From contig NZ_CP047602.1 of the NCBI RefSeq assembly GCF_009905255.1, positions 992,001-1,056,000 of the forward strand: a stretch of 64,000 nt of DNA, written 5' to 3'. Source of the stretch: Thermoanaerobacterium aotearoense. GTDB lineage: Bacteria; Bacillota; Thermoanaerobacteria; Thermoanaerobacterales; Thermoanaerobacteraceae. Positions 29,739 to 62,910 of this stretch are shown in pieces (position 1 is the stretch's first letter; each line of letters starts with the position of its first letter). The translations under genes and the position numbers were made by a program. The notes beneath the pieces are model-generated. The model saw nothing but the letters and a program-made list of their open reading frames with translations. It had not been told where the DNA came from and searched no databases.

Positions 29739-29848
29739 AATAGAACAAAGTTATTGTACAATTACCAGCAGGAAAATTTGGTGATAGAGTGAAATATCCT
29801 GTACAAGTCAGATAATTTGTGTTAAAATAAAGTAAAAGTAAATATTTT

Positions 29849-29950
29849 TGTCTGGGGAGCTGGGGTGATAGCCCGGCTGAGAGTTAGCAGCTATTTCTGC
29901 TATGACCCATAAACCTGATCTGGATAATGCCGGTGTAGGGAGTACATTGG
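29849..29950 (+). ncRNA. TPP riboswitch (THI box)
   Basis: The conserved core is visible: GGGGAGCTGGGGTGATAGCC, GGCTGAGAG, then GACCCATAAACCTGATCTGG and ATAATGCCGGTGTAGGGA. It senses thiamine pyrophosphate and controls the thiamine genes that follow. A terminator (29956-29982) is just downstream, so regulation is by premature transcription termination. Confidence 0.96.
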
Positions 29951-29955
29951 ACTTT

Positions 29956-29982
29956 AAGTGTGCTTATCCAGCACACTTTTTT
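29956..29982 (+). terminator. Riboswitch-controlled terminator
   Basis: AAGTGTGCT pairs with AGCACACTT around a five-base loop, followed by T residues. It is the expression platform of the TPP riboswitch. Confidence 0.85.
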
Positions 29983-35049: not shown

Positions 35050-35387
35050 TGTTTATCACCCTCAAAATTTATCAAATAATCTTTCAGCACATCTTCTATA
35101 ATGCCGGGATTTACGCATGCTTTGATTCCTCTTTCTTTGAGCCTCATTATGGCTGCATTTCCTATCATGCATACGAAGACTGCCTCGCAATCTTTGATTT
35201 TGTCTATTACAATATTCATTCTGTCGTAAAAATCATCACCACCACATGCATTAATACATTCTCTGACTTCACGGACAAAATAATTTCCATCATCATATAA
35301 ATCAACGATGATAAATCTTTTTGCGTGTCCAAAATGTTCGTTAACCATCTTACCATCTCTTGATGCGATAGCAATTCTATGCATCAT
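35046..35387 (-). CDS. NifX/NifB-C-terminal-like cofactor-binding protein
   Basis: 113 residues forming a single dinitrogenase iron-molybdenum cofactor domain: RIAIASRDGKMVNEHFGHAKRFIIVDL, CINACGG and CEAVFVCMIGNAAIMRLKERGI. This is the domain fused to the C terminus of NifB in many diazotrophs and found free as NifX/NafY; it carries NifB-co or FeMo-co. Here it is a separate gene overlapping nifB by four bases. Start could be either of two adjacent ATG codons. Confidence 0.9.
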   Translation of the reverse strand: MMHRIAIASRDGKMVNEHFGHAKRFIIVDLYDDGNYFVREVRECINACGGDDFYDRMNIVIDKIKDCEAVFVCMIGNAAIMRLKERGIKACVNPGIIEDVLKDYLINFEGDKQ

Positions 35388-36205
35388 ATATCATCACCTA
35401 AAAGTCCTGCAGCATCAGCTCTGCACTGCCTGCAGTGGTACATCTGACTTATAATTTTTGAATTTTGAAGCCTTACTTTTTCAAGTTCATTGCACTTGGG
35501 AGCTTTTAAATGTGAAAATTCAGCTTGTGGAATAAGAGGCATTATATTCATGATGGCAACACCAAGTTCCTTTATTTTTTTTGCTATATCATCTATGTGC
35601 TTATCGTTTATACCAGGTATTAAGACAGTATTGACCTTTACAAGTAAGCCGTTGTCACAAGCAGCTTCTATGCCTTCTAGCTGTTTTTCTATAAGTAATT
35701 TTGCTGCATTTATTCCTTTGTACGTATTATCTTTATAGATTGCATAATCGTATATTTCTTTACCTATGTTAGGATCTATAGCATTTATTGTCACTGTTAT
35801 TGTGCTTACACCACAGTTTATTAAAAGAGGTAGCTTATCGCTTAAAAGCAATCCATTTGTGCTTAAGCATTTGATCATATCTTTAAATTCTAAGGAAATC
35901 AATTTAAAAGTTAAGAATGTCTCATCGTTGTAAAGTGGGTCACCGGGGCCTGCTATTCCTATGACAGAAATGCGAGGCTCTTTTTTTAACATCTTTTTAG
36001 CATATAATATTGCTTCATACGGATCCATAATTTTAGTTGTTACGCCGGGTCTGTTTTCATTTACGCACCCTGTCTTTCTGTCGCAGTATTTGCACTTTAT
36101 ATTGCACTTAGGTGCTACAGGCAAATGCACCCTGCCGTGATATAAAGTCGCATCAGGATTAAAACATGGGTGTCCAAAACCTACCGTATTAAATTCTTTA
36201 TTCAT
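35384..36205 (-). CDS. nifB: Nitrogenase cofactor maturase NifB (radical SAM)
   Basis: 273 residues, short form without the NifX domain. HPCFNPDA near the N terminus, SAM-cluster motif CNIKCKYC (Cys34, Cys38, Cys41), GIAGPGDPL, STNGLLL, and the C-terminal CRQCRADAAG that ligates a further cluster. It builds the 8Fe-9S-C core (NifB-co) of FeMo-co in the cytoplasm. First gene of the leftward operon nifB-nifX-like-modA-modB, headed by a tandem antitermination leader. Confidence 0.95.
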   Translation of the reverse strand: MNKEFNTVGFGHPCFNPDATLYHGRVHLPVAPKCNIKCKYCDRKTGCVNENRPGVTTKIMDPYEAILYAKKMLKKEPRISVIGIAGPGDPLYNDETFLTFKLISLEFKDMIKCLSTNGLLLSDKLPLLINCGVSTITVTINAIDPNIGKEIYDYAIYKDNTYKGINAAKLLIEKQLEGIEAACDNGLLVKVNTVLIPGINDKHIDDIAKKIKELGVAIMNIMPLIPQAEFSHLKAPKCNELEKVRLQNSKIISQMYHCRQCRADAAGLLGDDI

Positions 36206-36231
36206 TTTATCCTCTCCTTATAAAAAATTTT

Positions 36232-36268
36232 GGAGCCTTTAATCGACTGATTAAAGGCTCCAGTGCCT
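36232..36268 (-). promoter_or_regulatory. ANTAR-type antitermination element 2 of the nifB leader
   Basis: On the minus strand, AGGC-ACTGGA-GCCT (36255-36268 in plus coordinates) is a 4-bp stem with a hexaloop having A at position 1 and G at 4. Its 3' side is also the 5' arm of the terminator GGAGCCTTTAATC/GATTAAAGGCTCC (36232-36261, perfect 13 bp), followed by AAAATTTTTT. The two folds exclude each other. It is the element nearest nifB. Confidence 0.75.
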
Positions 36269-36272
36269 AAAA

Positions 36273-36310
36273 AAGTCTTTAACCGAATGGCTAAAGACTT
36301 CCTCGTCTTT
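36273..36310 (-). promoter_or_regulatory. ANTAR-type antitermination element 1 of the nifB leader
   Basis: On the minus strand, AAAGAC-GAGGAA-GTCTTT is a 6-bp stem with a hexaloop (G at position 1 rather than A; G at 4). Its 3' half overlaps the 5' arm of the terminator AAGTCTTTA/TTAAAGACTT, which is followed by six T residues. It stands in tandem 5' of the second element. Confidence 0.65.
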
Positions 36311-36404: not shown

Positions 36405-36433
36405 TTGACATTTAATAAAAATACTGATATCAT
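36405..36433 (+). promoter_or_regulatory. Candidate nifH promoter
   Basis: TTGACA, 17 bases, TATCAT. Transcription from it would give a leader of about 320 bases containing both antitermination elements. Another TTGACA at 36482 lacks a good -10 box. Confidence 0.65.
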
Positions 36434-36573
36434 TTTAACAACAATAAATTTTTGCTAGACTTTCCTAATACATAATTTTATTTGACATATCTATTTTGCT
36501 TTATTCCAAAAGACAGCCATTTTTAAGTTCATGACTAAAATAAAAATGAATATTAAATTTATAATATTGTAAT

Positions 36574-36615
36574 AAGCAAAGGCGCTTTTCTAAAATGAAA
36601 AGCGCTTTTTGTTTT
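36574..36615 (+). promoter_or_regulatory. ANTAR-type antitermination element 1 of the nifH leader
   Basis: AAGC-AAAGGC-GCTT (36574-36587), hexaloop with A1 and G4. The 3' side overlaps the terminator GCGCTTTTC/GAAAAGCGC (36582-36605, perfect 9 bp), followed by TTTTTGTTTT. Default state is termination; stabilising the small hairpin would permit readthrough to nifH. Confidence 0.78.
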
Positions 36616-36672
36616 GGCAATGGAGCCATGTATATATATTTTCACTGTATATATACATGGCGTTATTTTGTT
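36615..36672 (+). promoter_or_regulatory. ANTAR-type antitermination element 2 of the nifH leader
   Basis: TGGC-AATGGA-GCCA (36615-36628), hexaloop with A1 and G4. Its 3' GCCA starts the terminator GCCATGTATATATA (36625-36638) pairing perfectly over 14 bp with 36648-36661, followed by GTTATTTTGTT. It begins in the T tail of element 1, giving two switches in series. Confidence 0.75.
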
Positions 36673-36712: not shown

Positions 36713-37582
<870 letters not shown>

Positions 37583-40573: not shown

Positions 40574-40592
40574 ATTTGAAGAGGTGAATATC

Positions 40593-40931
40593 ATGATTAA
40601 GCTGTCAGATGAGGCATTATCACAGTTAAGAAAAATTTTAAATAATTTACCTAATAAAAATGAAACTACAGGTTTTAAAATATATACAGTTCCAACAGAA
40701 GAAGGATTTCTAGCCGGTTTTGCGGTTGCCGATAATTTTAAAGAAAATGATGAGATCTTAGAGTATGACGATGTGTATATCTATATTGATAAATCAGATC
40801 TTAATTATCTGAAGTACAGCGTGATTGAATATGATGACAAGTACAATAGATTTTTCATAAATATGCCACATAGTTTTAATCTGCTGTGTTCAACATGTGA
40901 CAGATATAGCGATTGTAATTATATTAATTGA
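40593..40931 (+). CDS. HesB/IscA-like small protein in the nif operon
   Basis: Start at ATG 40593 behind GAAGAGG; 112 residues. The opening IKLSDEALSQLRKIL and the beta-rich middle recall HesB/IscA (A-type Fe-S carrier) proteins, but the canonical CGCG tail is replaced by CSTCDRYSDC. HesB-like proteins are common in clostridial nif clusters. A role in Fe-S supply to nitrogenase is plausible but unproven. It sits between nifK and nifI1, cotranscribed. Confidence 0.65.
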   Translation: MIKLSDEALSQLRKILNNLPNKNETTGFKIYTVPTEEGFLAGFAVADNFKENDEILEYDDVYIYIDKSDLNYLKYSVIEYDDKYNRFFINMPHSFNLLCSTCDRYSDCNYIN

Positions 40932-44510: not shown

Positions 44511-44631
44511 AAGCGATGAAGCTTATAAGTGTGTTATGCATTTGTAAGCTTTTATTAATTGAAATCAAGTGTTTATTTTAGGTAGGCAAGGGTGCCCGTT
44601 CTATCATGAATTGGGCACCCTATATATTTTT
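44511..44631 (+). promoter_or_regulatory. ANTAR-type leader of ald
   Basis: P1-like hairpin AAGC-GATGAA-GCTT (44511-44524; loop G1, G4) precedes P2 GGC-AAGGGT-GCC (44585-44596; loop A1, G4). P2 overlaps the terminator GGGTGCCC/GGGCACCC (44590-44620), followed by TATATATTTTT. A longer hairpin AAGCTTA/TAAGCTT starting at 44518 could compete with P1. Confidence 0.7.
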
Positions 44632-47161: not shown

Positions 47162-47200
47162 TGGCAATGCGGTCACCTTGTGGCCGCATATATTTTAATA
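47162..47200 (+). promoter_or_regulatory. ANTAR-type element between livJ and livH
   Basis: TGGC-AATGCG-GTCA (47162-47175; one G-U pair), hexaloop A1 and G4. It overlaps the terminator ATGCGGTCAC/GTGGCCGCAT (47167-47189, one G-U pair), followed by ATATTTTAAT. It would uncouple permease from binding-protein expression. Confidence 0.7.
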
Positions 47201-56088: not shown

Positions 56089-56226
56089 ATGACATTTTAT
56101 TAATTATTATGTAAAATTTATTTAAGTCTTAAAGATGAGACTAAAAAATTAATATACTAAATAAAGTAGCAATGGTGCTAATTAAAGGTACGAAAAATGC
56201 CTTACAATTAGCACCATTTCTGTTTT
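56089..56226 (+). promoter_or_regulatory. Promoter and two-hairpin ANTAR-type leader of the aminotransferase gene
   Basis: Promoter ATGACA-17-TAAAAT (56089-56117). P1: AGTCTT-AAAGAT-GAGACT (56125-56142), loop A1, G4. P2: TAGC-AATGGT-GCTA (56167-56180), loop A1, G4. P2 overlaps the terminator ATGGTGCTAATT/AATTAGCACCAT (56172-56217, perfect 12 bp), followed by TTCTGTTTT. This is the clearest complete P1-P2-terminator arrangement in the window. Confidence 0.82.
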
Positions 56227-61377: not shown

Positions 61378-61433
61378 AGAGCAAAGGCGCTCTAATTCAT
61401 AGGTGATTCCTGTGTATTAGAGCGTTTTCTTTT
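61378..61433 (+). promoter_or_regulatory. ANTAR-type antitermination element of amt1
   Basis: AGAGC-AAAGGC-GCTCT (61378-61393), 5-bp stem, hexaloop A1 and G4, identical in loop to nifH element 1. It overlaps the terminator CGCTCTAAT/ATTAGAGCG (61388-61424, perfect 9 bp), followed by TTTTCTTTT. No P1 hairpin is clear in the short AT-rich leader. Confidence 0.78.
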
Positions 61434-62781: not shown

Positions 62782-62812
62782 GTTAAGAGCTTTAAAATAA
62801 ATAATAAATGCT

Positions 62813-62856
62813 GCCAAATAAATATAATTTATTTAAAAATGAATAATTTATTTGGC
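62813..62856 (+). terminator. Inverted repeat after amt1
   Basis: GCCAAATAAAT pairs perfectly with ATTTATTTGGC over 11 bp with a 22-base loop; there is no T tail. It could stabilise or end the amt1 mRNA, or shape the following leader, whose inner TTATTT-AAAAAT-GAATAA resembles a P1 hairpin but has A at loop position 4. Confidence 0.5.
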
Positions 62857-62865
62857 AAATTTAAG

Positions 62866-62910
62866 AAGCAAAGGTGCTTAATCTGTTAAGATATAAGCAC
62901 CTTTATTTTT
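62866..62910 (+). promoter_or_regulatory. ANTAR-type antitermination element before the second transporter unit
   Basis: AAGC-AAAGGT-GCTT (62866-62879), hexaloop A1 and G4. It overlaps the terminator AGGTGCTTA/TAAGCACCT (62872-62902, perfect 9 bp), followed by TTATTTTT. It controls the small membrane protein gene and amt2. Confidence 0.77.

Follow-up and report, generated by a model that had tools for sequence, protein, structure and literature searches.

The closest described parallels to the leader analyzed here are the dual-hexaloop attenuators of the EutV/eut, NasR/nasF and AmiR/amiE systems (PMC3369931 and PMC8934654), with which it shares an A1/G4 hexaloop, a hairpin 3′ arm held in common with a terminator, an association with nitrogen genes and, as predicted here, antitermination by an ANTAR protein. 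ANTAR substrates need an A at loop position 1 and a G at loop position 4 (PMC3369931). According to Walshe et al. (PMC8934654), the contact is between one ANTAR dimer and one hexaloop, and in vivo EutV requires an upstream recruitment hairpin, P1 (PMC8934654; PMC3369931), besides P2, the hairpin that shares its 3′ arm with the 5′ arm of the terminator. Unlike in these attenuators, P1 is missing in the first nifH element (E1) and in most elements of the family described here, loop position 1 may be G (as in the first nifB element), and two complete elements stand in series.

Antitermination of nif genes by GnfR of Geobacter is an older case. Like the regulator proposed below, the gnfR product of Geobacter sulfurreducens is a nitrogen-fixation response regulator by name (PMC7962754), but it belongs to a different phylum. 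ANTAR regulons at nitrogenase were predicted in 2012 for Pelobacter carbinolicus and Desulfotomaculum acetoxidans, with elements before nitrogenase and ammonium genes as here (PMC3369931). For D. acetoxidans the same text gives 13 attenuators in six units or operons, i.e. more than two per unit on average, so series arrangements were already implied, and a serial arrangement at nifH is not singled out in the text consulted. Those elements, as described there, are dual hairpins found with a P1–P2 model, and the P1-less form would probably escape such a search. NitR of Clostridium saccharobutylicum is an ANTAR regulator that induces GS/GOGAT genes under nitrogen limitation; it resembles the present case in being tied to the glutamine synthetase genes of a clostridial anaerobe, and nif control is not reported for it in the review consulted (PMC6316151).

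The original prediction, that tandem control of nifH by RNA antitermination is not a standard description of nif regulation, therefore overstated the novelty, as ANTAR control of nitrogenase was already predicted in 2012 (PMC3369931), but the finding that the series arrangement is common in Bacillota nifH leaders is new. We consider the novelty moderate; the additions are how often serial elements occur at nifH, the tolerance of either A or G at loop position 1 and the existence of a form without P1. How do anaerobic Gram-positive diazotrophs without nifA switch nitrogenase? This question has been described as open (PMC8209448), and attenuators, often in series, in most of the sampled Bacillota nifH leaders, together with an RNA-binding protein linked to glnA, make it directly testable.

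Two hexaloop–terminator elements before nifH

Within the window (the whole 64,000-nucleotide stretch analyzed), the gap between nifB and nifH holds two divergent sigma-70-like promoters, and the two-element region lies ∼140 nt downstream of the nifH promoter (Table 1). In both E1 and E2, an A1/G4 hexaloop with a stem of 3 bp or more has its 3′ arm in common with the 5′ arm of an intrinsic terminator, such that the hexaloop and terminator folds are mutually exclusive. The claims that the second element starts inside the T tail of the first and that each has its own hexaloop hairpin and perfect terminator (9 bp and 14 bp) can be read directly from the sequence; the E2 hairpin begins on the tail's last T. 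The folding energy of the region is −47.3 kcal/mol (z = −7.1), a value reached by 0 of 200 shuffles. Without protein, the terminator is favored over the hexaloop fold by 12.0 kcal/mol in E1 and 6.2 kcal/mol in E2, and the default state would thus be OFF.

Table 1. Leader elements, promoters and associated genes in the window
Feature	Position	Strand	Remarks
nifB-like radical SAM gene, short form	35384..36205	−	TIGR01290, 319 bits, below the cut-off of 344
nifB leader element 2, AGGC[ACTGGA]GCCT	36231..36268	−	14-bp terminator 36262-36231
nifB leader element 1, AAAGAC[GAGGAA]GTCTTT	36293..36310	−	G1/G4; overlaps terminator 36300-36273
nifB promoter, sigma-70-like	36370-36342	−	divergent from nifH promoter
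nifH promoter, sigma-70-like	36405..36433	+	TTGACA-17-TATCAT, TG before −10, 11/12; consensus match only
P1-position hairpin, AATATTA[AATTTA]TAATATT	36550..36569	+	7 bp, hexaloop, T at loop position 4; not a canonical P1
E1 antiterminator hairpin (P2-type), AAGC[AAAGGC]GCTT	36574..36587	+	A1/G4
Terminator 1, GCGCTTTTC-TAAAAT-GAAAAGCGC	36582..36615	+	hairpin 36582-36605; 9 perfect bp, extendable to 13; tail TTTTTGTTTT, U tract 36606-36615
Candidate E2 P1, AAATGAAA[AGCGCT]TTTTGTTT	36593..36614	+	8 A/U and G/U pairs, A1/G4; weak evidence
E2 antiterminator hairpin, TGGC[AATGGA]GCCA	36615..36628	+	A1/G4
Terminator 2, GCCATGTATATATA...TATATATACATGGC	36625..36671	+	hairpin 36625-36661; 14 perfect bp; T-rich tail GTTATTTTGT, fair, not ideal
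nifH, regulated gene	36764..37582	+	first in nif cluster: nifHDK, two PII-like nifI, nifE/N-like genes
Single element, GGC[AAGGGT]GCC + terminator	44585..44621	+	before alanine dehydrogenase (44648)
Probable element, TGGC[AATGCG]GTCA + terminator	47162..47188	+	between livK and livH
Element, TAGC[AATGGT]GCTA + terminator	56167..56217	+	before aminotransferase/allantoate amidohydrolase genes
Element, AGAGC[AAAGGC]GCTCT + terminator	61378..61424	+	before amtB-1
Element, AAGC[AAAGGT]GCTT + terminator	62866..62905	+	before amtB-2/glnK; covariance model 35.3 bits

A blind scan of the whole window on both strands accepted any hexaloop hairpin with its 3′ arm inside the 5′ arm of a T-tailed hairpin, and matches scoring at least 14 were counted for each of the 16 possible base combinations at the first and fourth loop positions. 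There were seven AG matches, two GT (both within coding sequence), one GG and none of any other type; enrichment is confined to AG and GG. Forty single-strand shuffles, equivalent to 20 windows, gave one AG overlap, i.e. ∼0.05 expected per window against the seven observed, every one of which sits before a nitrogen gene. Because loop identity was not used in finding the elements, the scan is a test of ANTAR specificity. The elements and their adjacency are far beyond chance.

The nitrogen regulon and its glnA-linked ANTAR protein

Besides the nifH leader, at least seven nitrogen-gene leaders of the genome carry the same predicted type of switch, among them that of the divergent nifB gene, with a second tandem pair of elements, and, outside the window, that of glnA, with one element. 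All elements detected stand before nitrogen genes. The amtB-2 element fell under the score cut of the blind count and was found with a covariance model; E1 reaches 59.9 bits, a score to be read with the fact that E1 is a seed of the same model. Covariance model R1 (hexaloop plus terminator) recovers the elements of amtB-1, amtB-2 and the aminotransferase leader along with nifH E1, but not those of glnA and ald or nifH E2, and those of its remaining genome matches that were inspected are plain terminators; for these reasons it was left out of the counts. Beyond the window, stretches around chosen genes and motif matches were examined, and among the matches listed for the core motif GCAMNGGNGY genome-wide (100 of 121), the out-of-window sites fetched held no convincing further element. 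Additionally, a long inverted repeat (GCCAAATAAAT...ATTTATTTGGC, 62800-62865) lies directly before the amtB-2 element, and a gene for an uncharacterized 115-residue protein without an NCBIfam match (40584-40931) separates nifK from the PII-like nifI pair.

The genome encodes one ANTAR protein (67.8 bits), and its gene lies directly after glnA, as expected for a NitR-type REC-ANTAR regulator. Over its full length, the PDB entries that it matches best are Rv1626 and EutV (86 bits against EutV 6wsh). Compared at the EutV RNA-contact residues taken from PMC8934654, the protein has counterparts of R142, K143, K149, E160, Y164, R168 and M172 and differs at the backbone-contact positions N173, R175 and R177. 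The receiver keeps the Asp54, Thr and Lys positions, one acidic-pocket residue is replaced by Ser, and there is no kinase gene beside the ANTAR gene; given these features, a partner such as glutamine synthetase would be as likely an input as phosphorylation. Partner control of ANTAR proteins has precedents in AmiC–AmiR and NasS–NasT. In two related genomes (G016 C1:451280 and G008 C1:76567), second ANTAR matches are short open frames (63 and 77 residues) beside intact genes, which may reflect duplication with decay or an assembly effect.

Recurrence of tandem elements and the recruitment hairpin

Four same-genus leaders have both hexaloops unchanged, with drift in the terminator loops and at a few stem positions. 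Otherwise different nif leaders that again contain two elements are found in G001, G017 and G034, three more lineages of the order (NifH 69–72% identical), with loops spaced 45, 84 and 66 nt apart, respectively, and with a G1 loop in the second element of G034. Altogether, tandem pairs are present in the nif leaders of four lineages of the order, from the same genus to another family (NifH ∼69–100% identical), and the architecture recurs without sequence conservation. The glnA leaders carry one element in three families of the order, though not in every genome examined.

Across the phylum, at least one element was found in 24 of 30 Bacillota nifH leaders (a phylum sample of 27, to which three of the order were added) and at least two (two or three) in 13, counts that are lower bounds since the scan detects one of the two elements in leaders L008 and L020, against 2 of 66 non-Bacillota nifH leaders with an element. 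The Clostridium sensu stricto, Caldicellulosiruptor-like and non-Bacillota nifH leaders, which served as controls, had no or almost no elements. AG or GG loops make up 36 of the 44 hexaloop–terminator overlaps in nifH leaders (a 182-kb background has four such matches), with G at position 1 in 11 of the 36 phylum matches. From these distributions, this kind of switch, often paired before nifH, is very probably a main way in which these NifA-less bacteria control nitrogen fixation.

Several further leaders merit description. G1/G4 loops, often of the form GGC[GAAGGC]GCC, occur in L050, L051, L052, L062, L063, L067 and L069 as well as in the window (36293-36310, − strand), often adjoining A1/G4 elements within one leader, and may be recognized by the same or a different ANTAR protein. 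Nine nifH leaders of a Caldicellulosiruptor-like family (L011–L019), without an ANTAR element, share, within ∼330 nt upstream of nifH, a long-range hairpin (CAGGGGGAG...CTCCCCCTG) that is conserved, as are blocks upstream of it. This may be a different leader switch, although an ANTAR protein, its receiver devoid of the usual aspartates, is encoded in these genomes. L184 (G032 C2:392000-397700) has a second ANTAR gene ∼2.7 kb ahead of nifH and, further upstream, an element (CTCAAC[AAAGGC]GTTGAG) with a terminator; no element was detected at nifH itself.

What serves as the recruitment hairpin in these leaders? Neither nifH element fits the standard dual-hairpin form, in which an A1/G4 hexaloop stands ∼5–12 nt upstream of P2; E1 has a T4 hairpin only, kept in the four same-genus leaders, and E2 has an A/U-only candidate overlapping terminator 1. 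This candidate, built from the 3′ arm of terminator 1 and mutually exclusive with it, is kept in same-genus leaders; the G001 and G017 tandem leaders lack it, and E2 of G034 has a different, canonical P1. Of 21 elements of the order, 17 have no GC-bearing P1, compared with 10 of the 29 elements of phylum nifH leaders (Fisher p 0.0016), and in two of the four order elements with a P1 it is the tandem partner's own hexaloop. In the phylum sample, a second hexaloop (A or G at position 1, G at position 4, at least 4 bp) lies 2–10 nt upstream of 19 of 29 elements, and examples such as GATAC[ACAGTT]GTATC and GTAC[GACGAA]GTAC match the dual hairpin of the 2012 model. At glnA, the −10 box is ∼25 nt before the hexaloop, leaving little room for P1. 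Since most elements of the family have no P1, a single hexaloop would have to suffice here, unlike for EutV. By its anatomy, E1 would work like a canonical dual-hexaloop ANTAR RNA, but we do not class it as one. Such natural P1-less elements offer a test of the EutV recruitment-hairpin model, and covariance models that require two hairpins have probably missed them.

Readings of the tandem leader

Two ANTAR-type antitermination switches in series, as the original prediction had it, provide the best reading of the nifH leader, to which as a whole we assign a probability of about 0.8 on sequence evidence; loop specificity, the nitrogen-only regulon, the glnA-linked ANTAR protein and recurrence in unalignable nifH leaders all support it. 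By default, each terminator would form, and polymerase would be released after about 36612 with the rest released near 36670. Under scarcity of fixed nitrogen, the glnA-linked, NitR-like ANTAR protein would be active and would bind each A1/G4 hexaloop on its emergence, holding the short hairpin, which uses up the 5′ arm of the terminator, such that polymerase passes. As two passages would be required to reach nifH, readthrough would be approximately the product of two events, leak would be multiplied down across the two gates, and the shut-off might be tighter and the response steeper. Control would likewise be double at nifB, and single at the genes for ammonium transport and alanine dehydrogenase, at glnA and at other nitrogen genes. 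The lack of a P1 at E1, the only fair tail of terminator 2, the incomplete acidic pocket of the ANTAR receiver with no kinase gene adjoining, and the presence of RpoN and of the two NifI proteins described below count against this reading.

Is the pair instead one bipartite ANTAR substrate, with the E1 hexaloop as P1, the E2 hexaloop as P2 and an extra terminator over P1? The regular geometry speaks for such a single switch; in the nifH, nifB and G001 pairs, R1/G4 hexaloops stand at −36 to −39 nt relative to P2 (loop spacing 41 nt in nifH, 40 nt in nifB and 45 nt in G001), and an A1/G4 hairpin without its own terminator lies at the same distance in the aminotransferase leader. However, polymerase has to get past terminator 1 before it can transcribe E2, and thus E1 must act alone at least there. 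Additionally, glnA, amtB and ald are preceded by single elements that lack a P1, EutV does not tolerate a linker extended to 14 nt or by 20 nt whereas the gap here is ∼27 nt, and the G017 and G034 pairs are spaced far wider than that of nifH. We consider one bipartite switch unlikely.

A related possibility, which we regard as quite unlikely, is that the first switch licenses the second, in that the 3′ arm and U tract released when terminator 1 opens would fold into AAAUGAAA[AGCGCU]UUUUGUUU as the P1 of E2. This hairpin adjoins the P2 of E2, and its A1/G4 is kept in the same-genus leader L005 despite a changed loop base, but it has no G–C pair, is partly a consequence of the self-complementary GCGC of terminator 1 and is not seen in the nifB tandem leader either. 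A long shot, likewise, is the combined proposal that NifA-less Bacillota control nitrogenase chiefly by chains of ANTAR attenuators ahead of nifH, that in the family around this genome the switch was reduced to one hexaloop and that the first opening supplies the recruitment hairpin of the second, making an ordered two-step gate.

Returning to the two serial switches, could another ligand or protein (a riboswitch, a T-box or a PII-linked factor) drive them? The anatomy of a switch does not by itself name the binder, whose identity is deduced here, yet Rfam models give nothing near gathering score at the nifH leader (a permissive threshold adds chance matches only), the loop rule fits ANTAR specificity and the one ANTAR gene lies in the regulon's own glnA operon; we judge another binder very improbable. 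Two plain intrinsic terminators that insulate nifH, or a small-RNA gene, would account for two good terminators downstream of a divergent region and are highly implausible, as they leave unexplained the A1/G4 hexaloop at each 5′ arm (absent at other terminators), the restriction to nitrogen genes and the recurrence, and a pair between promoter and gene without release would silence nifH.

Other control layers were also considered. Control of nifH by NifA and sigma-54 was rejected; no sigma-54-like (−24/−12) site was found in the nifB–nifH gap and no NifA over the curated cut-off in the genome. RpoN is present in the genome, and thus nif may have other layers of control. Among the products of the nif cluster are two PII-like NifI proteins, whose class acts post-translationally. 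A known Rfam riboswitch or cis-regulator at the site was set aside, as no covariance model matched there; the sole match in the window is a TPP riboswitch elsewhere (RF00059, 59.8 bits, 29843-29959), before a thiamine salvage operon.
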